Assembly (NCBI RefSeq): GCF_000716335.1
Contig: NZ_KL591008.1
Span: forward strand, 1 to 40,172
Direction: 5' to 3'
DNA length: 40,172 bases
Source: Streptomyces sp. NRRL S-118
GTDB taxonomy: Bacteria > Actinomycetota > Actinomycetes > Streptomycetales > Streptomycetaceae
The notes below the pieces were generated by a model. That model made no database searches and had not been told where the DNA came from. It saw only the letters and a list, made by a program, of their open reading frames with translations. Each line of letters starts with the position of its first letter. Positions within the stretch are counted from its first letter, which is position 1. Below, piece after piece: positions 7,873-31,184 of the stretch. The position numbers were made by a program, and so were the translations under genes.

Positions 7873-9176
7873 TGAGCGACCTGTACGCACGCCACCGGGC
7901 CGTCATCCCCGACTGGGTCGCCCTCTACTACCGGGACCCCATCGAGATCACCCACGGCGAGGGCCGCCACGTCTGGGACGCGGACGGCAGGCGCTACCTC
8001 GACTTCTTCGGCGGCATCCTCACCACCATGACCGCCCACGCGCTGCCCGAGGTCACCAAGGCGGTCACCGAACAGGCCGGGCGGATCCTCCACTCCTCCA
8101 CCCTCTACCTCAACCGCCCGATGGTGGAGCTCGCCGAACGGATCGCCCACCTCTCCGGCATCCCGGACGCCCGCGTCTTCTTCACCACCTCCGGCACGGA
8201 GGCCAACGACACGGCGCTGCTCCTGGCCACCACGTACCGCCGCACCAACCAGACCCTGGCGATGCGCAACAGCTACCACGGCCGCTCCTTCTCCACGGTG
8301 TCCGTCACCGGGAACCGCGCCTGGTCGCCGACCACCCTCTCACCGCTGCAGACGCTGTACGTGCACGGCGGCGTCCGCACCCGCGGCCCGTACGCGCACC
8401 TCGGCGACGCCGCGTTCATCGAGGCGTGCGTCGCCGACCTGGAGGACCTGCTCGGGCACACCGCCGACGTCGCCGCGCTGATCGCCGAACCGATCCAGGG
8501 CGTCGGCGGGTTCACCTGCCCGCCCGACGGGCTGTACGCCGCGTTCCGCCAGGTCCTCGACCGGCACGGCATCCTCTGGATCGCCGACGAGGTGCAGACC
8601 GGGTGGGGCCGTACCGGCGAACACTTCTGGGGCTGGCAGGCACACGCCGCGAGCGGCCCGCCGGACATCCTCACCTTCGCCAAGGGGATCGGCAACGGCA
8701 TGTCCATCGGCGGGGTCGTGGCCCGCGCCGAGATCATGAACTGCCTCTCGGCCAACTCCATCTCGACGTTCGGCGGCTCGCCCGTCACCATGGCGGCCGG
8801 TCTCGCGAACCTGTCCTACCTGCTGGAACACGACCTCCAGGGCAACGCCCGCCGGGTCGGCGGCCTGCTCATCGAGCGGCTGCGCGCCGCCGCGGCGGGC
8901 ACCGACCTCGTCCGCGAGGTCCGCGGCCGCGGACTGATGATCGGCGTCGAGCTGGTGAAGCCCGGCACCGACGAGCCGAACCCGGAGGCGGCCACGGCCG
9001 TCCTGGAGGCCGCCCGCGAAGGCGGCCTGCTGATCGGCAAGGGCGGCGGCCACCGCACCACCGCGCTGCGCATCGCGCCACCGCTGTCCCTCACCATCGC
9101 CGAGGCCGAGGAGGGTGCCGCCCTCCTCGAAGGGGCCCTGGCCTCGGTCCGGCCGTCCAGCCGTCAGGTCCTCTAG
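7872..9176 (+). CDS. class III PLP aminotransferase, probable beta-alanine/omega-amino acid type
   Basis: A 434-residue class III (omega-amino acid) aminotransferase of fold type I. Motifs are TTSGTEANDTALLLA (phosphate cup), YHGRS, DEVQTGWGRTG (the Asp holds the PLP ring nitrogen), and LTFAKGIGNG with the Schiff-base Lys near residue 271. In this operon the likely job is to transaminate beta-alanine, or 3-aminoisobutyrate from thymine, to the semialdehyde; the family also includes alanine-glyoxylate and 4-aminobutyrate enzymes, so the amino donor is inferred from context. It starts at ATG 7872 inside the stop of the preceding gene. The next gene follows after 56 bases. Confidence 0.9.
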   Translation: MSDLYARHRAVIPDWVALYYRDPIEITHGEGRHVWDADGRRYLDFFGGILTTMTAHALPEVTKAVTEQAGRILHSSTLYLNRPMVELAERIAHLSGIPDARVFFTTSGTEANDTALLLATTYRRTNQTLAMRNSYHGRSFSTVSVTGNRAWSPTTLSPLQTLYVHGGVRTRGPYAHLGDAAFIEACVADLEDLLGHTADVAALIAEPIQGVGGFTCPPDGLYAAFRQVLDRHGILWIADEVQTGWGRTGEHFWGWQAHAASGPPDILTFAKGIGNGMSIGGVVARAEIMNCLSANSISTFGGSPVTMAAGLANLSYLLEHDLQGNARRVGGLLIERLRAAAAGTDLVREVRGRGLMIGVELVKPGTDEPNPEAATAVLEAAREGGLLIGKGGGHRTTALRIAPPLSLTIAEAEEGAALLEGALASVRPSSRQVL

Positions 9177-17186: not shown

Positions 17187-18509
17187 CTACGAGGTGCGCC
17201 CCGGGGCGTCGAAGCTCGTGAACGCGGAGCGCTTCGGCAGGCGGTACGTCTCGCGGCCCGTGATCGCGTTGAGGATCGTCGCGTTGCGCACGGCGCCGAT
17301 GTCCAGGTTCGGCGCGGAGACCCCGTGCGAGTGGACCTCGGCATTGGCCACGAACACCCGGCCGGTGACCCCCTCGGTGAGCTCCACCGAGTGGTCCACC
17401 CGCACCCGGGGCCGCCCCCGGCCGTCCCGCAGGAGCAGGTCGTCGACCGGCTTCAGGAACGCGGGCGTGCGGTTGCGGTACCCGGTGGCGGCCACGACCA
17501 GATCGGTGGTGTGCTCGAAGAGCGCCCCCGTGTCGCGGTGCCGGCACGTCAGCACGGCCCGCCCCACCGCGTCGACCGCGGCCGCCTCGACGGTGATCCC
17601 GAAACGCAGCTCCACATCGGCCAGTCCGTGCTCCAGCTGGCGCCGGTAGAGCAGCTCGTGCACCGCTTCCAGGGTGTCGGTGGAGATGCCCTTGTAGAAC
17701 TGCCACTGCTCGCCGACGAGCCGGTCGCGCGCCTCCTGTGGCAGCGAGTGGAAGTACCGCATGTACGCCGGGGTCGTCAGCTCCAGGTTCATCTTGGTGT
17801 AGTCGAGCGGCGCGAACGACGCGGTGCGGGTCAGCCAGCTCACCGCCGGGCCGCCCTCCAGGTTCCGGCCCAGCAGGTCGACCGTCACCTCGGCCCCGGA
17901 CTGCCCCGAGCCGACGACCGTGACCTTGCCGGCGGCCGCCACGTCGTCCGCCCGGTACAGGTAGTCCGAGGTGTGCAGCAGCATCGAGGGCGGCAGGTCC
18001 GCCAGCGCGTCCGGCACGTACGGCGCGGTGCCGATGCCCAGGACGAGGTTGCGCGCCCGCAGCCGCAGATGCGTGCCGTCACCCCGTACGGCGTGCACGG
18101 TGAAGCGCTCGGCGTCCGCGTCCCAGTGGACCTCCTCGACCCGGTGCGAGAACCGGACCGACGGCAGCCTCGCCGCCGCCCAGCGCAGGTAGTCCTCGTA
18201 CTCGCGCCGCGAGGGGAAGAAGTTCTCGCGCACGGTGAACGTGTAGAGCCGGTCCATGTCGTGCAGGTACGCGAGGAACGACAGGGGGTGGCTGGGCGCG
18301 ACGAGCGTGACGAGGTCGGCGAGGAAGTTCACCTGCATCGAGGCGTCGCCGAACATCATCCCGCGGTGCCAGGTCAGCTCCGGCTGCTCCTCCAGTACGA
18401 CGAGGTCGACGTCGTCGACGGTCGAGGCCAGGGCGGCCAGGCCCAGGTTGAACGGGCCGCAGCCGATGGCGACGACGTCGTGTTCGCCGGTGATGCCGTT
18501 CTCGGTCAT
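17187..18509 (-). CDS. siderophore N-hydroxylating monooxygenase (lysine/diamine type)
   Basis: FAD- and NADPH-dependent N-hydroxylase of 440 residues in the IucD/DesB/RhbE family, which turns a terminal amine (lysine, cadaverine, putrescine or diaminopropane) into the hydroxylamine needed for a hydroxamate. Features in order: FAD site GCGPFNLGLAAL near residue 16; WHRGMMFGDASMQVNFLADLVT; NADPH site VVGSGQSGAEV; TKMNLELTTPAYM; and VVAATGYRNRTP with the C-terminal NAEVHSHGVSAPNLDIG. It is the last gene of the five-gene operon, and its ATG overlaps the stop of the acyltransferase gene (18506-18509). Context favours a free diamine, because the operon has its own decarboxylase. Confidence 0.92.
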   Translation of the reverse strand: MTENGITGEHDVVAIGCGPFNLGLAALASTVDDVDLVVLEEQPELTWHRGMMFGDASMQVNFLADLVTLVAPSHPLSFLAYLHDMDRLYTFTVRENFFPSRREYEDYLRWAAARLPSVRFSHRVEEVHWDADAERFTVHAVRGDGTHLRLRARNLVLGIGTAPYVPDALADLPPSMLLHTSDYLYRADDVAAAGKVTVVGSGQSGAEVTVDLLGRNLEGGPAVSWLTRTASFAPLDYTKMNLELTTPAYMRYFHSLPQEARDRLVGEQWQFYKGISTDTLEAVHELLYRRQLEHGLADVELRFGITVEAAAVDAVGRAVLTCRHRDTGALFEHTTDLVVAATGYRNRTPAFLKPVDDLLLRDGRGRPRVRVDHSVELTEGVTGRVFVANAEVHSHGVSAPNLDIGAVRNATILNAITGRETYRLPKRSAFTSFDAPGRTS

Positions 18510-19087
18510 CGGGGCATGTCCTCCTCCGCACGCGGGTGGACGAGCAGGGCTGCGGTCTTGTCGGGGAAGGAGACCTTGCCGGCCGGCCGGAACCCCGCCG
18601 CCTCGAACGCCCGCAGCGAGGGCGCGTTGGTCACGTCGGGCTCGGCGACGACCCGGGTGCACTCCGGGTCGGCCGCCAGCAGGCCCTCGGCGAGGGCGCG
18701 CAGCAGCGCCCTGCCCAGGCCCTGCCCGGTGCGGCCCGGATCCCCGATGGCGATGTGCACGCCCAGGTCGTGGGGCAGTTCGGCGTAGTGCCCGGCGAGC
18801 CGGTCCCGGACCACCCGGTACACCTCGATGTACGCCAGTGGCGTCCCGTCCAGGTCGATCAGGACGGGCAGGATCGCATCGCCCGCGAGGTGCCCGGCGA
18901 TCTCCTCGTACCAGCGCTCCCGCGGCCACGCCTGGTGCCAGAAGGCGTCGATGTGCGGTGACTGCATCCAGCCGTGCACCAGGTCCAGGTCGGCGCCTTC
19001 GGCCCGCGCGACCCGGGCCGACCAGGGGGCATGCAGTAAGGGCAGCGGCGGGCCCGGGACGGTGGCGGCCGGCTGTGCCGAGGTCAT
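18506..19087 (-). CDS. siderophore N-acyltransferase (GNAT)
   Basis: A 193-residue GNAT-fold acyltransferase resembling IucB, RhbD and DesC. It would transfer an acyl group from acyl-CoA to the N-hydroxylated amine to make the hydroxamate. Visible marks are HGWMQSPHIDAFWHQAW, the YIEVYRVVRDRLA strand with the conserved acidic/basic patch, GDPGRTGQGLGRALLRAL for the CoA pyrophosphate loop, and VVAEPDVTNAPSLRAFEAAGF. Acetyl, succinyl or a longer acyl group cannot be distinguished. Its start overlaps the end of the type A synthetase by four bases (19084-19087), and its stop overlaps the start of the N-hydroxylase. Confidence 0.9.
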   Translation of the reverse strand: MTSAQPAATVPGPPLPLLHAPWSARVARAEGADLDLVHGWMQSPHIDAFWHQAWPRERWYEEIAGHLAGDAILPVLIDLDGTPLAYIEVYRVVRDRLAGHYAELPHDLGVHIAIGDPGRTGQGLGRALLRALAEGLLAADPECTRVVAEPDVTNAPSLRAFEAAGFRPAGKVSFPDKTAALLVHPRAEEDMPR

Positions 19088-20877
19088 ACGGAGGCCTCCT
19101 GGAGGGGGTTGGGGGCGTCGAGGTAGACGGACTGGGCGTCGAGGGGCGCGAGGACCTCGTCGATGCCGTGCAGCCGGGTCAGCAGGTTGCCCTTGCACGG
19201 CAGGGTGTCCGCCTCCAGCCAGCGGCGCGCCAGCCGGTCGCCGTCCGGACCGGCCTCGGCGAGCGCCGGCAGCGCCGCCCGCAGCCGTTCGGCGAGGACG
19301 GCGAGCAGGTCCCGCTCGTCCGCCAGGCCGTCGACGGCCAGGCAGCCGACGACCGACAGCGCCTGGTTGCGCAGCAGGTAGTACGACAGCCGGTCGTCGA
19401 CGAGGGCGTCGTCGACCACGGCGAGGGTGGAGGAGCCGGCGCCGAGCCGCTCCAGCAGACCGGGCAGGTACGACGCGGCCAGGTAGTAGCCCTGGTTGTC
19501 GCGGAAGGTGGAGCCGGTGACGCGGCCCCGCGCGTCCAGCCGGACCAGGGTGTTCTGCTGGTGCGCCTCCAGGCCGATCCCGGTCGCGGCGTACAGGTGC
19601 AGCATGGGCACCAGCACCTTGTCGGTGTAGTCGGCCGTCCACTCCTCGGCCGCGCCCGGGCCGAGGGCGGCGACGACGTCGCCGAGCGCGCTGCGGCCGA
19701 GGCCGGGCCGCGGGGCCACGAGCCCCACCAGGCAGCGCAGGTCGGCGATGCCGTCCGGCACCTCGCGCACGGCCACGTCGAGGCCGGTGACGTCCGGGCC
19801 CTGCGGGCGGCCCGGCTCGTCGACGGCGAGCCAGGCGGGGTCGCGGGTGATGGCGAAGCCGGGGTGGGCCCCGAAGGTGCTGTCGGCGTAACCGGCGTCC
19901 AGCAGCCGGTTGATCTCCAGGCCGCGGCGCAGCTCCGTACGGGTCGACTCGCGGCGGGAGTTGGTCAGCCGCAGCCCGAGGGACAGCTTCAGCATCACCT
20001 CGGCGTCCGGCCGGTACACGGTGCGCACGCTGGAGGTGGGCCACCACTCGGGGCCCAGCTCGCCGAGCGGTTCCAGCGCGCCCGAGGCGACGAGCGCCTT
20101 GATACGGGGCCGGTGCAGCAGGTCCCGGGCCTGCCAGGGGTGGGCCGGGACCAGCACCCGGCCGTCGTGCAGACGGCGCTCGGCCAGGTCGGCGAGGAGG
20201 GCCACGGTGTCCCGGCCCGCGAGGGAGGGAGCGGACGCGACGGCGTCGTGGGAGACGACCGACTCGTCGGCGGCGAACCAGTGCAGCCGGAAGGAGCCGC
20301 GCAGCTCGGGCGAGTACGCCGCCGCCTCGTGGTCCGACAGGCCGTCGCGGCTCTTGGGGGCCGGGTGGTTCAAATGCCCGAGCAGCAGGGCCTGTTCCGC
20401 GTCGAGGAACCCGTCCGTGCCGGGCGGCGGCTGCGGATGGGCACGCCGGTCGGAGATGAACGCGGCGACCCGGCGCACGGACTCGGCGGTGCGCTCCACC
20501 AGGTCGGCGACCTCACCGGCCGGGACGCCGCCGGGCCGGCTGCCGCCGCGGACCGCCGCCTCGGCGGACAGCAGCGCCACCGCCGTCACCGGGTCGGCGA
20601 CGGGACCGAGCGGACCTCCGGGGCCTTCCAGGCGGGCCGGCGCGAAGCGGTGCCAGCCGGTGGGGGAGCAGTGGGTGACCTCGGTGACGAGGGCCAGTCC
20701 CGCGGTCGGCAGGTCGACCCGGAGCGGGCCGGCGGCGACGGGCGTGCCCGTCTCGCGCAGCCAGCACCGCAGCAGGGCCTCGATGTGGGCGTGTTCGGCG
20801 GCGCCGCGCGCGTCGAGCGCGTGCAGCGGGTCCGCGGTCGTGGATGCGGTGGTTGCCGCCGTGGTGGTGACGGTCAT
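19084..20877 (-). CDS. NIS siderophore synthetase, IucA-like (type A)
   Basis: A 597-residue IucA/IucC-family ATP-dependent synthetase. These enzymes adenylate a carboxylate of citrate (or succinate/ketoglutarate) and form an amide with an amine or hydroxamate amine. ATP and citrate contacts seen: VLVPAHPWQARDLL, SSVRTVYRPDAEVMLKLSLG with TNSRRE, EAHQQNTLVRLD, and FRDNQGYYLA. The overall pattern, ending with TLPCKGNLLTRLHG and VYLDAPNPL, agrees with the type A group that adds the first amine to free citrate. Its start overlaps the decarboxylase stop by four bases. Together with the type C enzyme at the head of the operon it should make a symmetric or near-symmetric citrate diamide. Confidence 0.92.
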   Translation of the reverse strand: MTVTTTAATTASTTADPLHALDARGAAEHAHIEALLRCWLRETGTPVAAGPLRVDLPTAGLALVTEVTHCSPTGWHRFAPARLEGPGGPLGPVADPVTAVALLSAEAAVRGGSRPGGVPAGEVADLVERTAESVRRVAAFISDRRAHPQPPPGTDGFLDAEQALLLGHLNHPAPKSRDGLSDHEAAAYSPELRGSFRLHWFAADESVVSHDAVASAPSLAGRDTVALLADLAERRLHDGRVLVPAHPWQARDLLHRPRIKALVASGALEPLGELGPEWWPTSSVRTVYRPDAEVMLKLSLGLRLTNSRRESTRTELRRGLEINRLLDAGYADSTFGAHPGFAITRDPAWLAVDEPGRPQGPDVTGLDVAVREVPDGIADLRCLVGLVAPRPGLGRSALGDVVAALGPGAAEEWTADYTDKVLVPMLHLYAATGIGLEAHQQNTLVRLDARGRVTGSTFRDNQGYYLAASYLPGLLERLGAGSSTLAVVDDALVDDRLSYYLLRNQALSVVGCLAVDGLADERDLLAVLAERLRAALPALAEAGPDGDRLARRWLEADTLPCKGNLLTRLHGIDEVLAPLDAQSVYLDAPNPLQEASV

Positions 20878-22430
20878 GCGGCGCCCTCCTCGATCAGTCG
20901 TTCACAGGTGCGGCCGGCGTCGAGGACCATGTCCACGAGACCGTCGATGTCGTCGATGGTGGCGGTGGGGTTGAGCAGGGTGAACTTCAGGCACACGCGC
21001 TTGGCCGAGCCCGGGCCGCCCGTCGCCGCGTCGGTGCGCCCGATCAGCGCGCTGCCGGATTCCAGCAGCCGCCGGCGCAGGGCGCCGTTGAGCTCGTCGG
21101 CCGCGGCCGGGTGGGCCGTGCGGGACCTGCCGGTGCCGCGGTAGCGGAACACCACGGTGGTGAGCTCGGCCGGGGAGACCAGCTCCAGCTCGGGTTCGTC
21201 CCGGATCCGGCGTTCGGCGTGGCGGGCCAGGTCGTGGCAGACGTCGATCATGCGACCCATGCCGGCCCTGCCGTACGTCAGGAGGGTCGCGGCGGCCTTG
21301 ACCGCGTCGGGGCGGCGCGTGGTCTGCAGGCTGCGGCCGAGCAGGCCGTCGTAGCCGGCCTCGGAGTCGTCGGTCGGGTTGAGGTAGGCCACCTCGCGGT
21401 CGAGCGAGGTGAACGCGGTGGTGTCGGAGACCAGCAGCACACTGGTGGCGGCGGGCTGCCAGCCGGTCTTGTGCAGGTCGAGGGTGATGGAGTCGGCGAG
21501 CTCCAGCCCCGCCAGCCGGCCGGCCAGCCGCCGCGAGAACAGGGCGCCGAAGCCGTACGCGGCGTCCACGTGGAGCCACATGCCGTGCCCGGCGGCGATC
21601 TCGGCGATCTCCGGGAGCGGGTCGATGGAGCCGAAGTCCGTCGTGCCGGCGGTCGCGACCACCGCGACCGGCGTCCGGTCCGGGCCGAGCGCGTCCAGGG
21701 CGGCGGCCAGGGCGTCCGGCCGCATGCGCCGGTGCGCGTCGACCGGGACGGGGTGCACGGCGGCCTCGCCGAGCCCGAGGGCGGCGCACGCCCGGTGGGT
21801 GGAGAAGTGGGCGAGCTCCGAGCAGAACACGACCGGGCCGGGCAGGGCACCCACGCCCTGCTCACGGGCGTCGATGCCGCGCCGCAGCGCGGCGGCGTCC
21901 CTGGCGAGCAGCAGACCCATCAGGTTCGACAGCGAACCGCCGGGCGTGAGGACGCCGTCGGCGCGTTCACCGAGCCCGGCCAGCTGGATCAGTACCCCGA
22001 TGAGCCAGCGCTCGACCGCGATGGCCGAGGGGCCGGAGTCGTAGGTGTCCAGCGAGGCGTTGCCGGCGCTCGCCAGGGTGTCCGCGGCGACCGCGACGGC
22101 CAGCGACGGGGGCTGCAGATGGGCGGCGGCCCGGGGGTGGGACAGGTCGATGCCGTGCTCCACCAGCAGGGTGGCCAGGAGCTGGAGCGCCGCCTCGGCG
22201 CCGATCCCCTCGGCCGGCAGCTCGGCCGGGCCCAGCGCGCCGGTGGCGGCGGCGAGCACCTCGGCCGGGGTGCCCGCCGGCAGGGGGCCTTCCGGGCGGC
22301 GCGCGGCCGACGCCGCGCCGATGGCCCCGGTGAGCGTGGCGAGGACCTCGGCGAGCCCGTCGCGGGAACCGGCGAGCAGCGACGGCGGGAACGGGGACAG
22401 CAGGGGTCGCGTTTCGGTCAGCGGTGTCAC
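20874..22430 (-). CDS. PLP-dependent group II decarboxylase (lysine or diaminobutyrate)
   Basis: A 518-residue fold-type I decarboxylase of the DesA/RhbB/DDC family. Motifs: GVLTPGGSLSNLMGLLLAR, VVATAGTTDFGSIDPL, MWLHVDAAYGF and the PLP lysine in LDLHKTGWQP (near residue 321). In siderophore operons such enzymes make cadaverine from lysine (desferrioxamine) or 1,3-diaminopropane from 2,4-diaminobutyrate (rhizobactin, schizokinen). There is no diaminobutyrate aminotransferase in this operon, which favours lysine, although DABA from an ectoine pathway could also be used. The GTG start at 22430 overlaps the stop of the type C synthetase (GTGA), and its own stop overlaps the type A synthetase start. 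Confidence 0.9.
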   Translation of the reverse strand: MTPLTETRPLLSPFPPSLLAGSRDGLAEVLATLTGAIGAASAARRPEGPLPAGTPAEVLAAATGALGPAELPAEGIGAEAALQLLATLLVEHGIDLSHPRAAAHLQPPSLAVAVAADTLASAGNASLDTYDSGPSAIAVERWLIGVLIQLAGLGERADGVLTPGGSLSNLMGLLLARDAAALRRGIDAREQGVGALPGPVVFCSELAHFSTHRACAALGLGEAAVHPVPVDAHRRMRPDALAAALDALGPDRTPVAVVATAGTTDFGSIDPLPEIAEIAAGHGMWLHVDAAYGFGALFSRRLAGRLAGLELADSITLDLHKTGWQPAATSVLLVSDTTAFTSLDREVAYLNPTDDSEAGYDGLLGRSLQTTRRPDAVKAAATLLTYGRAGMGRMIDVCHDLARHAERRIRDEPELELVSPAELTTVVFRYRGTGRSRTAHPAAADELNGALRRRLLESGSALIGRTDAATGGPGSAKRVCLKFTLLNPTATIDDIDGLVDMVLDAGRTCERLIEEGAA

Positions 22431-24265
22431 GCCCTGTCTCCTCGGTCCTCGGCCAGCGGGTTGGGGTGCGTGCCGTTCGGGTACAGCGCGTGGCGCAGGG
22501 CGCGGTCGGTGTACCGCGTGACGACGATCCGGTCGCGGTTCAGGCCGTACCGGGGGATCTCGGGAGTCAGCAGGTCGTACTCGGCGAACCGACCGGCCAG
22601 CTCCGGGAACCGCTTCCGGAAGTCCTGCTGGAAGTCCAGGATCGTCCGCCGGACCAGGCGCCAGAACACCGTCTCCGGTACGCCGAGCTGCTCGGCGCAC
22701 AGCGGCGCGAGATAGCGGAAGTGCCCGACGAAGACCTGGTCCATGACGTGCTGCTTGATGATCGAGGGGTGCTTGCGGGGCAGGACGTGGTCGTGCCCGT
22801 CCGGCTCGGGGCCGCGCTCCGGCACGTCGGTGAAGGAGACGCACACGTCGTCCACGAAGTCCTTCAGGTACAGGCGGGCCGGTACGTCGTTCTCGTCGTA
22901 CCCGATCAGCGTGTTCTGCCCGTGCGGGTTGAAGGTGACGCCGTACCGGTAGAGCACGTGCAGGATCGGCACGAGCAGCGTGCCGAACAGGCGTCGCAGC
23001 CATTCCTGCGGGTCGAGGCCCGAGGCGCGGACGAGTTCGGCGACGAACGCGTCACCGGAGTTGTCGACGTGCAGGAGTGACGCGAAGGTGCGCACCCGCT
23101 CGTCGGGGTCCTTGCGCGCCGACACCGACTCGCGCCAGATGCAGCCCAGAGTCTCCAGGTGCTGGTAGGGCGCCTCGTCCAGCTTGGACAGGTAGGGATG
23201 GCGCACGGTCACCGAGGCGACCTCGCCGAGGAACACGGTCCGGCACTCGCCGGTCAGGAACGTGTCGCGCTCCACCAGTCCGCGCAGCCACTGCGTCACC
23301 ACGGGCGCGCCCATGGTGCAGTGCGGCGGTATCCCGCGCCAGACCAGGGTGTTGAGGATCTTCAGCGGCAGCTTGACGTCGTACCGCTCGGGGGTGGTGA
23401 CGTTGGCCATCGTGCGGATGGACTGGCCCGGCAGGTACGCGTCGGGGCTCTCGCCGAGCGGGATGATGCGCCGCTGTGCCACGTCGGCGGCGTGCAGGAT
23501 CTGGACGGCGTGGTCCCACTGCCAGGGGTGGACGGGCATCCACACGTACCCGGCGGGGTCGACCCCGGCCTCCTCCAGGACGCCGGTGAAGCGGGCGCGG
23601 GTCACCTCGTCCAGTTCGGCGGCGAGGATGCCGTGTTCGGAGAGGTCCGAGGTGCCGCGGAACTCGGCGAGGCCGCGGTGGACGGCGACCCAGCGCAGTC
23701 TCAGCGGCTGCGCCGACTCGGGGGCGTACCGGCGTACGTCGGTGGCCGAGAAGCCGATCCGTCCCTTGTTCGCGACGAGGAGGTTGTGCCCCGTCATGCG
23801 GCACTCGAGGTCCGTGTGTCCCAGGCCGCGCAGTTCGGCCACGGTCTCGCCGCCGTGCGTGATGCGCGCGGCGTCGACGGCGAGGGTGGCGGAGAGCTCG
23901 GTGAAGTAGGTGGCGACGGTGGACGGGTCGCTGCCGATCGTCGAGGCCGCCTCCATGAGGAACTGCTGTGCGTCCCAGGCGGGTTGGGCGATCGCGTTGC
24001 CCAGCATGCTGGTCGCGGTGCGGGTGATGGAGTCCGGGTCGACGCGCAGCGAGCCGAACGCACCGGGCGTGGCGCTGAACGCGTAGGTGGTGCCGCTGTC
24101 GAGGTCGACGCGGTAGCCGCCGTCGCCGGTCTCGACCGCTTTCAGCATGTCCTCGAAGCACCATTCGCCGATGGCTTTGGCGAGGAGCCGGCGGTTGGCC
24201 TCGCGCCAGGCGGCCGGGGCCACGTCGGGCAGAGCGGGCACGGGATGGTCGGCGGGTTGGGGCAT
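22427..24265 (-). CDS. NIS siderophore synthetase, IucC/RhbF-like (type C)
   Basis: First gene of the siderophore operon: a 612-residue IucA/IucC-family synthetase. ATP/citrate site residues lie in WMPVHPWQWDHAVQIL, GQSIRTMANVTTPERYDVKL, LKILNTLVWRGIPPH, and FNPHGQNTLIGYDE. The C-terminal FhuF-like part shows the ending typical of type C enzymes (KRFPELAGRFAEYDLLTPE, then IPRYGLNRDRI). Type C enzymes act on a mono-amidated citrate or on succinyl-diamine units, completing the molecule. ATG 24265 lies 66 bases from the iron box at 24331-24349, so transcription should start between them and be blocked when iron is plentiful. The gene end overlaps the decarboxylase start by four bases. Confidence 0.93.
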   Translation of the reverse strand: MPQPADHPVPALPDVAPAAWREANRRLLAKAIGEWCFEDMLKAVETGDGGYRVDLDSGTTYAFSATPGAFGSLRVDPDSITRTATSMLGNAIAQPAWDAQQFLMEAASTIGSDPSTVATYFTELSATLAVDAARITHGGETVAELRGLGHTDLECRMTGHNLLVANKGRIGFSATDVRRYAPESAQPLRLRWVAVHRGLAEFRGTSDLSEHGILAAELDEVTRARFTGVLEEAGVDPAGYVWMPVHPWQWDHAVQILHAADVAQRRIIPLGESPDAYLPGQSIRTMANVTTPERYDVKLPLKILNTLVWRGIPPHCTMGAPVVTQWLRGLVERDTFLTGECRTVFLGEVASVTVRHPYLSKLDEAPYQHLETLGCIWRESVSARKDPDERVRTFASLLHVDNSGDAFVAELVRASGLDPQEWLRRLFGTLLVPILHVLYRYGVTFNPHGQNTLIGYDENDVPARLYLKDFVDDVCVSFTDVPERGPEPDGHDHVLPRKHPSIIKQHVMDQVFVGHFRYLAPLCAEQLGVPETVFWRLVRRTILDFQQDFRKRFPELAGRFAEYDLLTPEIPRYGLNRDRIVVTRYTDRALRHALYPNGTHPNPLAEDRGDRA

Positions 24266-24330: not shown

Positions 24331-24349
24331 TTAGGTTAGGCTTACCTTA
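24331..24349. promoter_or_regulatory. iron box (DmdR/IdeR-type) between siderophore operon and exporter
   Basis: TTAGGTTAGGCTTACCTTA matches 17 of 19 positions of the actinobacterial iron box TTAGGTTAGGCTAACCTAA. It lies between the divergent siderophore operon (minus) and MFS gene (plus), so one repressor site can control both synthesis and export. Confidence 0.88.
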
Positions 24350-24462: not shown

Positions 24463-25995
24463 GTGCCTTCGTGCCGTCGTACGCCCCGATGGACCTTCGC
24501 CCTCGTCAGCGCCGGGGGGGTGATGATGACGCTCGACGTGACCGTCGTGAACGTCGCGCTCTCCGGCATCGCCCGGGACCTGGAGAGCGGACTCGGCAAG
24601 GTCCAGTGGACCGTCTCCGCCTACTCGCTGGCCTTCGGCGCGTTGCTGCTGACCGCGGGAGCGCTCTCCGACCGCGTGGGCCGCAGGTCGGTCTTCATGG
24701 CTGGAATGGCCCTGTTCACCGTGGCCTCGGCCGGGTGCGGCCTGGCACCGGACATCGGCACGCTCATCGCCGCCCGTGCCGCCCAGGGGCTCGGCGGCGC
24801 CCTGGTGTTCGCACCGACGCTCGCCCTGCTCGCCGCCGCCTACGAGGGCGCCCGCCGCCAGGCCGCCATAGCCGCGTTCGCGGCCATCGCCTCCGCCGCC
24901 GGGGCGCTCGGCCCCGTCGTCGGCGGCCTGTTCGTCCAGGCGCTCGGCTGGCGGTGGATCTTCCTGGTGAACGTGCCGATCGGGGTCCTGGTCGTGGCCG
25001 GCGCGCTCGCCCGCATGCCGGAATCGGACACCCCGGCCGAGCCCCGGCGCGCACTCGACCCCCTCGGGGCCGTCCTGGGCGTCGGGACGCTCCTGGCCCT
25101 GCACTATCCGCTGGTCACCGGCCCGGAAGCGGGCTGGACGGCACCGGAGGTGCTGCTCTCGGCGGCCGTCGCCGTCGTCCTGGCCCTCGCCCTGGTGGCC
25201 AGCCAGCGCCGCGGCGACGGACTGATCGACATGACGCTGCTGCGCATCAGGGCGTTCTCCGGCGCCGCGGTGCTGGGCTTCCTCGCCAGGCTCTCCAGCC
25301 TCGGGGTGCTCGCCTTCGTCACGCTGTGGCTGCAGAGCGCCCATGCGTACTCACCGCTGGAGGTCGGGCTGCACCTGTTACCGCTGACGGGCAGTCTGCT
25401 GGTGGCGGGACTCTTCGTCGCCCGGCTGCAGAAGGTGTTCGCCCCGGACGTCCTGGTCGCCGGCGGCTTCGCGGCCCAGGGGGCGGGCCTGATCGGCCTG
25501 GCCGCCGCAGGAGCGGGCGGCGGCCGGGCCGCCACCGTCACCGGCCTGGTCCTCCTCGGCATCGGAGGGGCCGTCATCTTCCCGCCCCTCATGGGCGTCG
25601 CCGTGGGTGCCGCGCCCGCCGACCGGGCCGGGATGGCGTCCGGACTGACCAACGCCTGCTACCCGCTCGGCACGGCGACCGGCGTCGCCGCCTTCGGAGC
25701 CGTGTTCTCCGCCCGTCTCGGCGACGGTCTGGCCGGCGGCCCCGGAGCCGGCACCGGCCCGGACGGCGCCACGTCGCTGCGGGAGGCCGTCGAGACCGGA
25801 CGCTTCGAGCTGCTCGACCCCGCGCTCCAGCCGCTCGCCCGCTCCGCCTTCGCCGGGGCCTTCACCGCGGTCTGCCTGGCCTCCGCCCTCGTCTGCCTGC
25901 TCGGTGTGGTGGCCGCCCGCACCCTCAGGGCGGGGACGCCGGGCCTCGGAGGCACCCCGGAGCGCCCCCGGTCCTCCCGTATGGCGACACCCTGA
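24463..25995 (+). CDS. MFS transporter (DHA2-like), candidate siderophore exporter
   Basis: A 510-residue major facilitator with about fourteen hydrophobic segments, as in DHA2 drug:H+ antiporters. Motif A is present as GALSDRVGRRSVF; the first segment carries VMMTLDVTVVNVALSGIA, and motif C-like glycines are in ASAAGALGPVVGG. Start GTG 24463 is preceded by GGAGG (24449-24453) at nine bases; an in-frame start upstream at 24391 would add a non-hydrophobic, Cys/Arg-rich piece and is unlikely. The gene is divergent from the siderophore operon over a shared iron box, which is the main reason to call it the siderophore exporter; a multidrug role is the alternative. A strong hairpin follows the stop. 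Confidence 0.88.
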   Translation: MPSCRRTPRWTFALVSAGGVMMTLDVTVVNVALSGIARDLESGLGKVQWTVSAYSLAFGALLLTAGALSDRVGRRSVFMAGMALFTVASAGCGLAPDIGTLIAARAAQGLGGALVFAPTLALLAAAYEGARRQAAIAAFAAIASAAGALGPVVGGLFVQALGWRWIFLVNVPIGVLVVAGALARMPESDTPAEPRRALDPLGAVLGVGTLLALHYPLVTGPEAGWTAPEVLLSAAVAVVLALALVASQRRGDGLIDMTLLRIRAFSGAAVLGFLARLSSLGVLAFVTLWLQSAHAYSPLEVGLHLLPLTGSLLVAGLFVARLQKVFAPDVLVAGGFAAQGAGLIGLAAAGAGGGRAATVTGLVLLGIGGAVIFPPLMGVAVGAAPADRAGMASGLTNACYPLGTATGVAAFGAVFSARLGDGLAGGPGAGTGPDGATSLREAVETGRFELLDPALQPLARSAFAGAFTAVCLASALVCLLGVVAARTLRAGTPGLGGTPERPRSSRMATP

Positions 25996-26134: not shown

Positions 26135-28213
26135 TCAGAGCTCCCGCGTCCGGCGCAGCAGCCACACCAGGTACGGGGCGCCGACCAGGGCGGTGACGAT
26201 GCCCACCGGGATCTCGGTCGGCGCCAGCAGCCACCGGCCCAGGGCGTCCGAGGACACCACCAGCACCGCACCCAGGACCGCGGCCATCGGCACCATCCGG
26301 GCCGCGCTGTTGCCGACGACGCGCCGGGCCAGGTGCGGGGCGACCAGTCCGACGAAGCCCACCGCGCCGACCGCCGCGGCGGTGCCCGCCGCGAGCACCG
26401 CGCCCGCACCGAGGACCAGCAGCCGGGCACGGCCCAGCTCCAGGCCCAGGGCGCGCGGCAGCTCCTCGCCGAGGGCCAGCAGGTTCACCGGTCGCGCCGC
26501 GATCACCAGCAGCACCGCGACGACCGCGGGCAGCGCGAGCCACCCCAGCGCGGAGAAGTCCCGGGCGTACGTACTGCCGGCGAGCCAGCTGAGCGCGGCC
26601 GAGATGTTCATCTGCGCGCCGACCACCATGATGTTCACCAGGGCCATCGACGTGGCGGCCGCGCCGAGGCCGACCAGCACCACCCGGGTCGGATCCAGGC
26701 CGCTACGGCCGCCGCCGCGCGTCCCCCGGGCCACGAGCACCACGAGGGCGAGCATCAGCACGCCGCCGACGCCCGCCGCGGCCGGCAGGGCCACCAGCGG
26801 CGCGGAGGGGACCACGAGGATGACCGTCATGGCGCCGAGGGACGCCCCGCCGGTCACGCCGACGAGCCCGGGTTCGGCCAGCGGGTTGCGCACCACCGCC
26901 TGCACCGCCGCCCCCGCGACCGCCAGGCACGCCCCGGCGAGGGCGGCCACCAGGATGCGCGGCAGCCGGTAGGCCACCACCGCCTCGGTGATCTGCTCCG
27001 CGGAGCCGAACACCGCCGCACCCAGCTGGCTCCAGGTGACCTCCACGTCGCCGACGCGCAGCGAGACGACGATCGCGACGGCCAGGGCCAGCAGCCCGCC
27101 GCCGAGCGCGACGGCGTAGCCCGGGGCGCGGCGCCGGTCGGAGACCACGACGGCCGCGCCGGTGTCGGCGTCGCCGGTGCTGACCCGGCGCGCCAGCGCC
27201 ATGAACACCGGCCCGCCGATGAGCGCCGTGACCACGCCCACCGGGATCTCCGCGGGCTGGGTGGCGGACGGCTTGACGATCAGCTGGGCGGCCGCGTCCG
27301 CGCCGAGCACGAGCGCGGCGGCCAGCAGCGCGGCCGCCGGGATGAGCACCGCGTGCTTGCGCATCCCCAACTGCCGTACCACCACGGGGGCGATCAGGCC
27401 GACGAAGCCGATCGGCCCGGCGAGGGAGACGGCGGCCGCGGAGAGCAGCACCGCGAGGAGGAAGGCCGCGGGCCGGACGCGCTCGACGCGTACGCCCATC
27501 GCCTCGGCCGTCTCGTCCCCCAGCGCCAGCAGGTCCAGCGGCCGGGCCAGGAACGGCGCGATCAGCGCGCCGGCGGCGACGACCGCGCCGAGGACGAGCG
27601 GCCGTTCCAGGCCGGACTGCATCAGGGTGCCGTTGCCCCAGAAGAACAGCCCCCGGGTCGCCTGCACGTCGAGCATCTGCAGGAACTCGGCCGCCGCGGT
27701 GGCGGCCAGGGCGACGGTCGCCCCGGCGAGCAGCACCCGTCCGGGCGTCATCACCCCGCCGCTGCTGAGCACATACACCACGGCGACCGCGAGGAGCCCG
27801 CCGAGGAACGCGGCGCCACCGGCGGGGACCGGGCCGAGGCTGATGCCGGTGAAGGCCACCAGCACGACGGCGAAGTACGCCCCGGCGTTCACACCGAGGG
27901 TGTCGGGCGCCGCCAGCGGGTTGCGGGTCGCTCCCTGCACGAGCACACCGGAGACGCCGAGCGCGACACCGACCACGAGTCCGGTCAGGGTGCGCGGCAG
28001 CCGGCTGCCGACCAGGACGTCCTGGGTGCGCGGATCACCGTGGCCGAGGAGCAGGTCCACGATGTCGCCGATCCCCACCCCGGACGCTCCGAGACCGAGG
28101 TGCACCACGGCGACCACGCACAGGACGGCGGACAGGGCGCCGCCCACGAGCACAGCTCGTGGGCGGCGGCCGAGCGGACGGGCCGTGGGGGCCGTCAGTC
28201 CTTCCGAAGCCAT
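26135..28213 (-). CDS. ferric-siderophore ABC permease, two fused FecCD domains
   Basis: A 692-residue membrane protein made of two complete FecCD-type permease halves in tandem (about residues 20-335 and 355-690), like FhuB rather than a FepD/FepG pair. Each half repeats the same landmarks: SRLPRTLTGLVVGVALGVSG and YRLPRILVAALAGACLAVAG; ATRNPLAAPDTLGV and VVRNPLAEPGLVGV; GFVGLIAPVVVRQ and GFVGLVAPHLARR; PAEIPVGVVTALIGGP and PTEIPVGIVTALVGAP. The protein therefore can form the whole transmembrane channel alone. ATG 28213 lies in the stop of the binding-protein gene (TGATG), so their translation is coupled. It is the third gene of the importer operon. Confidence 0.93.
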   Translation of the reverse strand: MASEGLTAPTARPLGRRPRAVLVGGALSAVLCVVAVVHLGLGASGVGIGDIVDLLLGHGDPRTQDVLVGSRLPRTLTGLVVGVALGVSGVLVQGATRNPLAAPDTLGVNAGAYFAVVLVAFTGISLGPVPAGGAAFLGGLLAVAVVYVLSSGGVMTPGRVLLAGATVALAATAAAEFLQMLDVQATRGLFFWGNGTLMQSGLERPLVLGAVVAAGALIAPFLARPLDLLALGDETAEAMGVRVERVRPAAFLLAVLLSAAAVSLAGPIGFVGLIAPVVVRQLGMRKHAVLIPAAALLAAALVLGADAAAQLIVKPSATQPAEIPVGVVTALIGGPVFMALARRVSTGDADTGAAVVVSDRRRAPGYAVALGGGLLALAVAIVVSLRVGDVEVTWSQLGAAVFGSAEQITEAVVAYRLPRILVAALAGACLAVAGAAVQAVVRNPLAEPGLVGVTGGASLGAMTVILVVPSAPLVALPAAAGVGGVLMLALVVLVARGTRGGGRSGLDPTRVVLVGLGAAATSMALVNIMVVGAQMNISAALSWLAGSTYARDFSALGWLALPAVVAVLLVIAARPVNLLALGEELPRALGLELGRARLLVLGAGAVLAAGTAAAVGAVGFVGLVAPHLARRVVGNSAARMVPMAAVLGAVLVVSSDALGRWLLAPTEIPVGIVTALVGAPYLVWLLRRTREL

Positions 28214-29208
28214 CAGACCTTCAGGGCCTTGCCGGTCTCGTCGAGGATGTGCATCGCCGACAGCGGGCCGCCGAACAGCCAGGTGCCGGGGTCGAGCGCC
28301 AGCGCCTTGTCGTTCTTCACGAAGTCCAGGCCCTTCCACACGGCGTTGCCCGCGAGGTCCCCGGTGAACGGGTTGTCGTTGTCGGCGGCGACGTACAGGA
28401 AGGTGGAGTCCTTCTCGACCTTGGTGAGGCCCTCGACGCCGACCGTGGTCATGCCCCACGCGTCGGACTGGCCCTTCCAGCCGTTCTTCAGGCCGGCCAG
28501 GTTGAGCACCTGGGGCGCGATGGCGTCGTCGGTGAGCATCCGGATCGACGCGGCGCCGTTGGCGGTGAAGCCCTGCGCCAGCGCGTACTTCAGCCCGCCC
28601 TTGCCGGCCTTGTCCAGCCGGGCCTTGAGGTCGGCGGCCTTGGTGTCGATCTGCTGCGTCACCTCACCGGCCTTGTCCTCCTTGCCCACCGCCTTCGCCA
28701 GCTCGGTGAAGTTCTTCTTCATCGTCGCGAGCTGGGGCTTGGTGGTGTAGGTGAACGACAGCACGGGCGCGATGGCCTGGAGCTGCTTGAGGTTGGCCTT
28801 CGACCGGTCGTTGTCGATCACGATGAGGTCCGGCTGGAGCGCCCGGATCTTCTCCAGGCTCGGCTCGTTGCGGTCACCGACGTCGGTGACGCCGGCGGGC
28901 AGGCCCGCGCCCTTGGCCGTGATCCACGTGCCGTAGCCCTTGTTGTCGGCGTTGCCCGTGGGGGTGACCCCGAGCGCGACGAGCTCCTCGGCGTACGTCC
29001 ACTCCAGCGTCACCACCTTGGCCGCCGGCTTGTCCAGGGTGACCTTGCCCTGTGCCGTGTCGACGGTGATCTTTCCGCTCGCCGCCTTGTCCCCGCCCGT
29101 CTTGTCGTCCGTGGTGTCCCCGACGGTTCCGGACCCGCAGCCGGCGGCGGTGAGCATGAGGGCCACAGCGGTACCGCCCGTCGCGAGGGCGCGCAGCATT
29201 CTCTGCAT
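28213..29208 (-). CDS. iron-siderophore substrate-binding lipoprotein
   Basis: A 331-residue periplasmic-binding-protein homologue of the FecB/FhuD group. The N-terminus is a lipoprotein signal with lipobox LTAAGC, lipidated Cys24, followed by a Gly/Asp/Lys-rich flexible tether. The body shows the usual KVVTLEWTYAEELVALGV, PSLEKIRALQPDLIVID and a long connecting helix. It would catch the ferric siderophore at the cell surface and pass it to the fused permease. Start ATG 29208 has AAGGAG nine bases upstream. It is the middle gene of the operon: the ATPase gene ends 61 bases upstream, and its own stop overlaps the permease start. Confidence 0.93.
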   Translation of the reverse strand: MQRMLRALATGGTAVALMLTAAGCGSGTVGDTTDDKTGGDKAASGKITVDTAQGKVTLDKPAAKVVTLEWTYAEELVALGVTPTGNADNKGYGTWITAKGAGLPAGVTDVGDRNEPSLEKIRALQPDLIVIDNDRSKANLKQLQAIAPVLSFTYTTKPQLATMKKNFTELAKAVGKEDKAGEVTQQIDTKAADLKARLDKAGKGGLKYALAQGFTANGAASIRMLTDDAIAPQVLNLAGLKNGWKGQSDAWGMTTVGVEGLTKVEKDSTFLYVAADNDNPFTGDLAGNAVWKGLDFVKNDKALALDPGTWLFGGPLSAMHILDETGKALKV

Positions 29209-29269: not shown

Positions 29270-30079
29270 TCAGGGCGCGGTGGGGGCTTCCGACCGCTGG
29301 GGGAAGCAGGCGAGGTAGCCCGTCGCCGGATCGCGCACGACGTGGACGCGCAGGCCGAACGCGCGGTCGATGACCTCGGGGTCGATGACGTCGTCGGGCG
29401 TGCCGGAGGCGGTGATCCCGCCGTCGGCCACCACCACGACGTGGTCGGCGTACGCCGCCGCCTGCATCAGGTCGTGCAGCACCACGCCGCAGGCGATGCC
29501 GTGCTCACGGGCCAGCCGCCGCACCACGTCGAGCACCTCGAACTGGTGGCGCATGTCGAGGTACGTGGTGGGCTCGTCGAGCAGCAGCACACCCGCCCGC
29601 TGCGCCAGCACCATGGCCAGCCAGGCGCGTTGGCGCTCTCCGCCCGACAGTTCGTCGAGCCGGCGGTCGACCAGCGGAGCCGCGTCGGTGACCTCCAGCG
29701 CCCAGTCGATGGCCTCGGTGTCCTCCGCGGTGTGCCGGGAGAGAGCGCCGCGGTGGGCGTACCGGCCGTGCCGGACGAGCTCCCGCACGGTCACCCCGGC
29801 CGGCGCCTGCGACGCCTGGGGGAGGAAGGCCAGGCGCTGGGACAGCGCGCGGCGCCCGAGCGAGCGCAGGGGCACGTCGTCGATGCGCACCTCGCCGCCG
29901 AGCGGGTCCAGCAGCCCGGCCACCGTCCGCAACAGGGTCGACTTCCCGCAGCCGTTGGGGCCGACCAGGACGGTGATGCCGCCCGCCCGGAGGGTCAGGT
30001 CCACCTGCCGCAGCACCGGGCGTCCCGCGTGCCCGACGTCCAGATCCTTCGCCACCAGACGGACATCGCCTTCGGACAC
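29270..30079 (-). CDS. ferric-siderophore ABC transporter ATPase
   Basis: ATP-binding subunit of about 269 residues (FecE/FhuC type). Walker A is GPNGCGKST, the Q-loop is in FLPQASQAP, the signature is LSGGERQRAWLAM, Walker B is GVLLLDEPT, and the switch His is in GVVLHDLMQAA. Two adjacent GTG codons (30082 and 30079) follow AGGAGG at 30088-30093; I prefer the second because of spacing. A longer start at 30136 would lie inside the iron box and is rejected. It is the first gene of the importer operon, whose order ATPase-lipoprotein-permease is less usual than ATPase-last. Confidence 0.92.
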   Translation of the reverse strand: MSEGDVRLVAKDLDVGHAGRPVLRQVDLTLRAGGITVLVGPNGCGKSTLLRTVAGLLDPLGGEVRIDDVPLRSLGRRALSQRLAFLPQASQAPAGVTVRELVRHGRYAHRGALSRHTAEDTEAIDWALEVTDAAPLVDRRLDELSGGERQRAWLAMVLAQRAGVLLLDEPTTYLDMRHQFEVLDVVRRLAREHGIACGVVLHDLMQAAAYADHVVVVADGGITASGTPDDVIDPEVIDRAFGLRVHVVRDPATGYLACFPQRSEAPTAP

Positions 30080-30123
30080 CACGTACCCCTCCTGCCGCCG
30101 GACTGACCGCGCCACCATACAAC

Positions 30124-30142
30124 TTAGGTAAGGCACACCTAA
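30124..30142. promoter_or_regulatory. iron box upstream of the importer operon
   Basis: TTAGGTAAGGCACACCTAA matches 16 of 19 positions of the iron-box consensus, with intact TTAGGT and ACCTAA arms. It lies about 45 bases before the ATPase start. Confidence 0.82.
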
Positions 30143-30417: not shown

Positions 30418-30440
30418 TAGGTTAGGTATGCCTAACCTAA
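30418..30440. promoter_or_regulatory. iron box, extended palindrome, upstream of the DUF2470 gene
   Basis: TAGGTTAGG, TATG, CCTAACCTA is a perfect nine-base inverted repeat (30418-30439); the 19-mer TTAGGTATGCCTAACCTAA (30422-30440) matches 16 of 19 positions of the iron-box consensus. The four-base centre gives two overlapping half-matching registers. It ends just before the ribosome site of the next gene, so a bound repressor would block the promoter or early transcript. Confidence 0.82.
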
Positions 30441-30452
30441 GGGAGGTCCTCG

Positions 30453-31184
30453 ATGGGCGCCACCGCCGTCCCCCCGGCCGAACCGACCGCCGCCGAGCAG
30501 GTCCGTTCAGTGCTGGCCCGCGCGGATTCGCTGACCATGACCACGGACGGACACCGCTACGACCTCGTCGGACTGCACACCGTCGACGAGCGGGGGCAGG
30601 TCGGGCTCGACCTGCCGGCCGGCAGTCCACCGGCGGCGCAGGCCGCGTACGCGCCACGCGGCGCGCTGGCCGCCCTGCTGGAGTTCACCGACGTCGCACC
30701 CACCGCCGTACGCGACAGAGTCCGCGCCCGGGTCACGCTCTCGGGATGGCTGACGCCTCTTCACCCGCCGGGCGCCACCGACCGCGTGGCGCTCCGCCTG
30801 GACACCGCACGCGCCACCCTGGCCACGGCGTCCGGCACCTCGGCCGTCGGCCTCGACGAGATCGTGCTGGCCGTGGCGGACCCCCTGGCCGGGCAGGAGG
30901 CCGCCCTGCTCACCCACCTGGCCGACGCCCACCCCCAGGAGATGGCACGGCTGACGCGCCTGGTCGACCCGCGGCACCTCCAGGGCGTCCTGCGCGTATG
31001 GCCGCTCGCCCTGGACCGCCACGCGCTGACCCTCCGGCTCGAACGGGCCCGCGGCCACCGCGACGTCCGGCTGGCCTTCCGTGCCCCGGCGTACGACGCC
31101 ACCCAAGCCGCCGACCGCATCCAGGAGTTGCTCGCCGGCACGCGCACCTGCGGGCACCGCCGCCGGCTCCTCGGCCGCTCATGA
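30453..31184 (+). CDS. DUF2470-domain protein, probable iron/haem-linked
   Basis: A 243-residue protein. The N-terminal half (LARADSLTMTTDGHRYDLVG, TDVAPTAVRDRVRARVTLSG) and the C-terminal DUF2470 part (ALLTHLADAHPQEMARLTRLV, ALDRHALTLRLERARGHRDVRL, ending in AADRIQELLAG) match a widespread streptomycete family. DUF2470 also forms the C-terminal part of HugZ-type haem-degrading proteins, which suggests a role in haem or iron handling; no catalytic residues are obvious. GGGAGG lies seven bases before ATG 30453, and a palindromic iron box overlaps the promoter region, so expression should rise on iron starvation. A 49-codon frame overlaps its stop by four bases. Confidence 0.85.
   Translation: MGATAVPPAEPTAAEQVRSVLARADSLTMTTDGHRYDLVGLHTVDERGQVGLDLPAGSPPAAQAAYAPRGALAALLEFTDVAPTAVRDRVRARVTLSGWLTPLHPPGATDRVALRLDTARATLATASGTSAVGLDEIVLAVADPLAGQEAALLTHLADAHPQEMARLTRLVDPRHLQGVLRVWPLALDRHALTLRLERARGHRDVRLAFRAPAYDATQAADRIQELLAGTRTCGHRRRLLGRS

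Follow-up and report, generated by a model that had tools for sequence, protein, structure and literature searches.

A five-gene operon with two siderophore synthetases

We analysed a window of 40,172 nucleotides from Streptomyces sp. NRRL S-118 (contig NZ_KL591008.1, positions 1 to 40,172), which carries on its minus strand, at 17187-24265, an operon of five genes, each overlapping the next by GTGA or ATGA. In order, these encode a type C synthetase of the nonribosomal peptide synthetase-independent siderophore (NIS) kind, a pyridoxal phosphate (PLP)-dependent decarboxylase, a type A NIS synthetase, an N-acyltransferase of the GNAT family and a flavin adenine dinucleotide (FAD)-dependent N-hydroxylase (Table 1). 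All five proteins score far above their Pfam cut-offs and, with two IucA/IucC synthetases at 252 and 197 bits (cut-off 25 bits), the operon belongs by sequence to the NIS siderophore pathways. Coordinates, gene overlaps and Pfam matches thus agree with an earlier annotation of this DNA, made from the sequence alone (hereafter the original prediction).

Table 1 Features of the siderophore locus, in window positions. ORF, open reading frame; ABC, ATP-binding cassette; MFS, major facilitator superfamily.
Feature	Position	Strand	Length, scores and remarks
Type C NIS synthetase (DesD/AlcC/IucC-like), gene 1	24265-22427	-	612 aa; PF04183 252 bits, PF06276 120 bits
PLP-dependent decarboxylase, putatively of lysine (or lysine/ornithine)	22430-20874	-	518 aa; PF00282 172 bits (domain read inside longer ORF)
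Type A NIS synthetase (IucA-like, putatively citrate-activating)	20877-19084	-	597 aa; PF04183 197 bits
Putative GNAT N-hydroxydiamine acyltransferase	19087-18506	-	193 aa; PF13523 148 bits (domain read inside longer ORF)
FAD-dependent diamine N-hydroxylase	18509-17187	-	440 aa; PF13434 357 bits (domain read inside longer ORF)
Iron box, 17/19	24331-24349		between operon and divergent exporter; scored against a DmdR/IdeR-type consensus
Divergent MFS exporter gene	24520-25995	+	start estimated, longest ORF from 24391; PF07690 155 bits; EmrB-like 221 bits (cut-off 230)
Fused double FecCD permease, FhuB-like	26135-28459	-	likely start near 28153; PF01032 508 bits in two stretches; FhuB 607 bits (cut-off 849)
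Siderophore-binding protein, FhuD-like	28213-29208	-	PF01497 86 bits; FhuD model 150 bits (cut-off 252)
Uptake ABC ATPase	29270-30118	-	start estimated; PF00005 109 bits; FecE model 269 bits (cut-off 375)
Iron box, 16/19	30124-30142		just upstream of ATPase gene
Iron box, 17/19	30422-30440		upstream of DUF2470 gene starting 30453 (+)

The type C and type A labels of the original prediction hold when the synthetases are compared with solved structures. The type C enzyme matches DesD (330-331 bits), AlcC (317 bits) and IucC (304 bits), whereas its score to IucA is 27 bits. The type A enzyme is closest to IucA (158 bits), followed by AcsD (73 bits), IucC (44 bits) and DesD (35 bits). By sequence type, the pair that a citrate diamide needs is therefore present. 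For the decarboxylase, the solved relatives are a desferrioxamine decarboxylase (5o5c, DfoJ; 271 bits) and diaminobutyrate decarboxylase 2qma (226 bits). The hydroxylase scores 333 bits to 6xbb, 296 bits to 5o8p (DfoA) and 281 bits to putrescine N-hydroxylase; 6xbb is identified as SsDesB in PMC8009421 (publications are cited here by PMC accession, from excerpts of their text). MbtK is the best solved relative of the acyltransferase (182 bits). Separately, residues 34-119 of the type A synthetase (window 20778-20521) resemble MbtK residues 41-125 of 441 (PDB) at about 40 bits, possibly a domain common to two enzyme classes.

Two NCBIfam labels were set aside. The hydroxylase reaches 389 bits on the model for a putative histamine N-monooxygenase, far below its cut-off, where the genome's own DesB gets 375 bits and the Sinorhizobium meliloti protein 770 bits; the decarboxylase reaches 333 bits on an RhbB-like model (cut-off 900), where the genome's own DesA gets 444 bits and the S. 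meliloti protein 892 bits. Since DesA and DesB score comparably on these models, the labels say little about the substrate of the window enzymes.

As the original prediction had stated, the operon has no diaminobutyrate aminotransferase, and no aminotransferase was found either there or in the adjoining exporter and uptake genes. A class III aminotransferase about 8 kb from the operon (7869-9176, plus strand) scores 151 bits on the diaminobutyrate transaminase (Dat) model TIGR00709, whose curated cut-off is 401.6 bits. It is nearest to acetylornithine-type models, all below cut-off and, judged by these scores, is not of the Dat kind.

Cadaverine as the probable diamine of the decarboxylase and hydroxylase

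Trees were built from hand-picked rows, 51 for the decarboxylase and 48 for the hydroxylase. Each window enzyme falls into a single clade with support of 100/100, of 36 and 35 rows, respectively, made up of 24 rows (hydroxylase 23) from two-synthetase loci and 12 from one-synthetase loci of the desferrioxamine type in Gordonia and Nocardia. All Dat-linked rows (eight decarboxylases, six hydroxylases) lie outside these clades, as do the Streptomyces DesA and DesB rows, the C4 rows (C4 is the contig of a decarboxylase-hydroxylase pair in NRRL S-118, see below) and one odd Haloechinothrix row. A constrained grouping of the window clade with the Dat-linked decarboxylases was rejected (approximately unbiased test, p-AU 0.0014); the trees contain long branches, and the inner branching order of the window clade is weakly supported.

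Three decarboxylase motifs, HLQ[PA][PA], DTYDS and GFG, are present in 36/36 clade members and in the Streptomyces katsurahamanus protein discussed below, and in none of the Dat-linked (0/8), DesA (0/2) or C4 (0/4) rows. These motifs also mark the desferrioxamine-type enzymes of Gordonia and Nocardia and therefore point to the diamine of those enzymes, not to a new one. Loss of the aspartate before the catalytic tyrosine (VAYLN versus ADYLN) was considered as a mark of changed substrate; this candidate was dropped because the position varies within the clade and among the Dat-linked rows.

The genomic context of the decarboxylase was followed by scanning named genomes with an alignment of this enzyme, which identified 128 relatives. 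No Dat match was found in the neighbourhoods of the best 80 of the 128 (0/80), some of which break off at contig ends. One Gordonia and one Nocardia genome were also tested, and each holds one synthetase and one decarboxylase match, the latter of the window clade. SsDesB, a DesB-type enzyme and so outside the window clade, favours cadaverine and does not hydroxylate 1,3-diaminopropane (PMC8009421). Taken together, clade, context and the rarity of Dat support a predicted role of the decarboxylase in supplying cadaverine, and family assignment and clade suggest that the hydroxylase and acyltransferase may act as cadaverine N-hydroxylase and acetyltransferase.

Relatives of the operon in reported arthrobactin producers

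Arthrobactin has Arthrobacter pascens as its classical producer. Its computed [M+H]+ of 477.2555 corresponds to citrate plus two cadaverines and two acetyls. In S. katsurahamanus, arthrobactin ([M+H]+ 477.256) was reported from a tandem mass spectrometry library match; its genes were called unknown, citing Burrell 2012, and the authors could name no cluster (PMC6856088, 2019). This species has orthologues of the decarboxylase (81% identical) and the type A synthetase (89%) and, because the longest contig given in both records measures 19,958 bases, the two genes probably lie together. Streptomyces jumonjinensis has the complete operon. No hydroxylase under the name S. katsurahamanus was found among the best 120 matches; similarly, no protein named as Streptomyces clavuligerus was found among the best 120 matches per list, where names are shortened and many are missing.

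Arthrobactin is also listed in the molecular network of Kribbella speibonae SK5, whose spb cluster is tabulated in the order synthetase (565 residues), hydroxylase (418), acyltransferase (156), synthetase (546) and decarboxylase (495) (PMC7411998). The cluster has the same five enzymes as the window operon, including the two synthetases, and its composition, table order (reversed) and approximate gene sizes are those of the Kribbella loci that we found. In these relatives the type C gene stands at the opposite end from that in the window, and the decarboxylase and hydroxylase are 56-61% identical to the window's.

All six Kribbella genomes hold three synthetases, the operon pair and one other. 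In 3/3 genomes inspected of the six, the third lies in a DesC-DesD pair, and neither a decarboxylase nor a hydroxylase match turned up in 16 kb there. Beyond the operon, decarboxylase matches do not exceed 33% identity (6/6), and a further hydroxylase at 30-32% occurs in 3/6, the remaining matches being short and weak; in all six, the operon holds the sole close match to either enzyme. K. speibonae makes desferrioxamines, and its N-hydroxycadaverine therefore presumably comes from window-type enzymes. These gene contents suggest that the two-synthetase locus of Kribbella feeds N-hydroxycadaverine to both pathways; for a product built on citrate, only this locus would offer an IucA-like synthetase.

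We found no assignment of an arthrobactin gene cluster in the open-licence PMC papers searched. A 1978 paper describes cadaverine in its title as an intermediate shared by arthrobactin and ferrioxamine E (references of PMC11238546), and desB orthologues have been counted as arthrobactin genes, with no cluster given in the excerpt (PMC11238546). The excerpts of PMC13293324 and PMC12842786 contain nothing on this operon type.

Siderophore loci of NRRL S-118 and known systems

Five IucA/IucC matches were found in the genome: two in the operon, one DesD and two on contig C11. The DesD lies in a desABCD locus on contig C12, apart from the operon. The C11 locus (C11:54000-73000) has the order Dat, type A synthetase, acyltransferase, type C synthetase; the 19 kb examined there yielded neither a decarboxylase nor a hydroxylase match. 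With desABCD on C12 and the two-synthetase locus on C11, the operon is therefore the third NIS locus of the genome. The original prediction had expected a second siderophore beside desferrioxamine; the desferrioxamine genes are indeed there, but that count was too low.

On contig C4 (C4:218000-237999) lies a decarboxylase-hydroxylase pair, about 4.5 kb from a pyruvate kinase gene and with no synthetase match in the 20 kb around. Together, C11 and C4 would make up a complete set of the rhizobactin/schizokinen type divided between two loci. A match of at least 67% to the C4 hydroxylase is present in 57/61 Streptomyces genomes (own included; three in pieces). The C11-type synthetase seems widespread in Streptomyces, and a schizokinen-type pathway split in this way may be common across these species.

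Among characterised systems, the locus of S. meliloti 1021 for rhizobactin 1021/schizokinen (rhbABCDEF; the record itself is unannotated) shares the order of decarboxylase, type A synthetase, acyltransferase and hydroxylase and likewise includes a type C synthetase. Unlike the window operon, it carries a Dat gene in front, its type C gene is last rather than first, and neither its decarboxylase nor its hydroxylase falls within the window clade; its proteins are 34-42% identical to those of the window. The genome's own desABCD likewise encodes a decarboxylase, hydroxylase, acyltransferase and type C synthetase, but no type A synthetase, in keeping with a desferrioxamine pathway that uses a single synthetase and succinate in place of citrate. 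Decarboxylases and hydroxylases of the window's own clade occur in the DesC-DesD-decarboxylase-hydroxylase loci of Gordonia and Nocardia. In aerobactin biosynthesis (iucABCD), IucA and IucC join hydroxamate arms to citrate, but lysine is used directly and no decarboxylase is needed; the match of the window's type A synthetase to IucA is modest at 158 bits.

Proposed pathway and alternatives

It is likely, with a probability of roughly three in four, that the product of the operon is arthrobactin or a very close homologue. This product would be citrate whose two terminal carboxyls each carry one N-acyl-N-hydroxycadaverine in amide linkage, the acyl group and diamine being predicted, and it would bind iron via two hydroxamates and the citrate centre. 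The cadaverine-based, arthrobactin-like siderophore guessed by the original prediction thus gains support from the clades, the rarity of Dat and the reported chemistry of relatives.

From the same clades, context and chemistry, we propose that the decarboxylase converts lysine to cadaverine and that the hydroxylase converts cadaverine to N-hydroxycadaverine, which the GNAT enzyme may then acetylate (acetyl being suggested only by the mass of arthrobactin). The type A synthetase would activate citrate and attach the first arm and the type C synthetase would attach the second, an order of ligation taken from aerobactin IucA and IucC. Low iron would release expression via the box found at 24331. 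As their families and positions suggest, the MFS protein would export the product and the FhuBCD-like system would reimport its iron complex.

Several points weigh against this assignment. Neither arthrobactin report rests on an isolated compound; both derive from matches to spectral libraries or databases and concern species other than NRRL S-118. S. katsurahamanus has yielded two of the five genes, joined solely by their common longest contig of 19,958 bases, and the excerpt of PMC6856088 reports arthrobactin from this species only, not from the operon-bearing S. jumonjinensis. The spb cluster was assigned by its authors to the desferrioxamines isolated from K. speibonae (PMC7411998), and our comparison with that species rests on six Kribbella relatives and the authors' table. 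An Arthrobacter genome has a four-gene Rhb-like cluster that its authors read as schizokinen-like (PMC3534580). Dat genes above the TIGR00709 cut-off are present in three operon-bearing organisms, S. jumonjinensis, Haloechinothrix alba and Streptoalloteichus, and NRRL S-118 itself has two, on C11 and C4. Lastly, GorA of Gordonia rubripertincta is described as a putrescine N-hydroxylase, reportedly active also on cadaverine and 1,6-diaminohexane (PMC8009421), and the decarboxylase of that species is titled a lysine/ornithine decarboxylase (reference list of PMC7824959); to judge from 9/9 Gordonia loci, both enzymes probably belong to the window clade.

Because of these two Gordonia enzymes, putrescine keeps a share of the probability, and the same scaffold with other building blocks (putrescine arms, mixed arms or non-acetyl acyl groups) is conceivable, though unlikely. 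The acyltransferase leaves similar room, in that its best solved relative, MbtK, is a lysine N-acyltransferase and its family does not fix the acyl group. The mass reported for S. katsurahamanus, however, is that of two cadaverines and two acetyls on citrate, and the preference of SsDesB is for cadaverine, albeit in an enzyme from outside the window clade. A schizokinen-type product, in which diaminobutyrate from another locus would give 1,3-diaminopropane to be hydroxylated, acetylated and joined to citrate, was the fallback of the original prediction. For NRRL S-118 it could draw on the two genes that pass the Dat cut-off, one at the C11 siderophore locus and one on C4 (the latter possibly ectB), and the nearest NCBIfam model of the decarboxylase is RhbB, yet at a score far under the cut-off and exceeded by the genome's own DesA. 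For the family it is disfavoured: no transaminase above the cut-off was found in 9/12 operon-bearing genomes (six Kribbella, two Myxococcus, one Saccharothrix), the Dat-linked rows stand outside both window clades with their joint decarboxylase grouping rejected, and SsDesB, although of another clade, is inactive on 1,3-diaminopropane. We regard this route as very improbable.

A role in making, or contributing to, desferrioxamines has been proposed in print for the spb cluster of K. speibonae (PMC7411998). It accords with the type C synthetase being closest to DesD among solved structures, and a DesCD pair could draw on the decarboxylase and hydroxylase. Against it stand the separate desABCD of NRRL S-118 and, in the three Kribbella genomes inspected, a DesC-DesD locus apart from the operon. 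Moreover, two Myxococcus genomes, one Saccharothrix and one Streptoalloteichus have two synthetases in total, and we know of no role for an IucA-like enzyme in desferrioxamine assembly. We therefore hold this role to be quite improbable for the window operon, whose separation from desferrioxamine biosynthesis, already drawn by the original prediction, is borne out by the location of desABCD elsewhere in the genome and by the IucA-like second synthetase. Arthrobactin or a close homologue remains the preferred product.

Iron boxes, export and uptake

Iron boxes were sought with a 19-base consensus of the DmdR/IdeR type. With up to five mismatches allowed, no site arose when the window was simulated 30 times with a first-order Markov model (0/30). 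The box upstream of the operon is of this type, and iron regulation may be expected from the predicted site. The scan was extended to 19 relatives. In 14 of them the type C gene leads the operon, and all 14 have a site with at most three mismatches within 350 bases upstream of it; before the internal decarboxylase gene of the same 14, the best site has 9-10 mismatches. Of the other five, Streptoalloteichus has a three-mismatch site before the decarboxylase, and the Rhodococcus plasmid described below, two Myxococcus and one Kribbella have no site better than eight mismatches before the type C or decarboxylase gene.

The divergent exporter gene holds the same position in relatives, and the uptake ATPase is nearest to the FecE/FhuC models. 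Next to the uptake genes lies a DUF2470 gene preceded by a strong iron box of its own (30422-31184).

Distribution of the operon

Orthologues of the type A synthetase were found in 9/246 Streptomyces genomes including NRRL S-118; the eight others are 74-94% identical, one being partial. Six of these eight have all five genes in the neighbourhood, and two neighbourhoods break off at contig ends. Approximately 230/246 Streptomyces have a match better than 1e-59 (count from table) and, among the matches listed, those beyond the nine are mostly 49-55% identical. Three such lower matches were inspected (C11 of NRRL S-118 and loci L075 and L184), each of which stands beside Dat. In the phylum sample, a type A match at E 0.001 or better is present in 23/396 genomes, the best outside the genus being 44% identical, and the three strongest non-Streptomyces genomes have Dat in the locus.

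The best 80 of the 128 named-genome neighbourhoods, some from genomes also present in the other locus samples, comprise 44 with all five enzymes, 27 of the DesC-DesD-decarboxylase-hydroxylase layout (Nocardia, Gordonia, Williamsia, Jongsikchunia) and nine partial ones, several at contig ends. By record name, the full set occurs in Streptomyces, Microtetraspora, Haloechinothrix, Actinophytocola, Allokutzneria, Streptoalloteichus, Gandjariella, Saccharothrix, Lentzea, Actinoalloteichus, Kribbella, Myxococcus, Corallococcus, Pyxidicoccus and one 'Comamonas' with the myxobacterial layout.

Some individual records deserve mention. The 250 kb plasmid pSID of Rhodococcus pyridinivorans carries the whole operon, with the type C gene inverted, amid sugar-metabolism genes near an IS256 transposase, which suggests horizontal movement. 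Mislabelling or transfer may explain two records, the 'Comamonas sp.' contig with the myxobacterial-type operon and a contig titled 'Streptomyces sp. SID13031' whose operon is Kribbella-like. In one relative's locus (L066), the hydroxylase and permease are each read in two frames, through frameshifts or sequencing errors. Haloechinothrix alba (L185) has a second two-synthetase cluster, in the order decarboxylase, hydroxylase, type A, type C and 48-57% identical to the query sets, the decarboxylase of which branches away from the named groups.

Implications for arthrobactin biosynthesis

We see a slightly better than even chance that a wider picture holds as a whole. The operon family, which occurs in Streptomyces, Pseudonocardiaceae, Kribbella, myxobacteria and a Rhodococcus plasmid, would then be the missing arthrobactin cluster; its decarboxylase would represent a cadaverine-forming lineage separate from DesA; and the decarboxylase-hydroxylase module would have been swapped whole between citrate- and succinate-based lines, with one module in Kribbella feeding both. 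If a single Kribbella module does feed both lines, the published desferrioxamine assignment of spb needs revising, and the reading of that cluster would be corrected. For arthrobactin, a soil siderophore known for decades, the operon offers a concrete gene assignment that can be tested in named strains by means of one diagnostic mass. The decarboxylase clade and motifs, together with the absence of Dat, may let genome miners separate cadaverine-based citrate siderophores from those of the schizokinen type.

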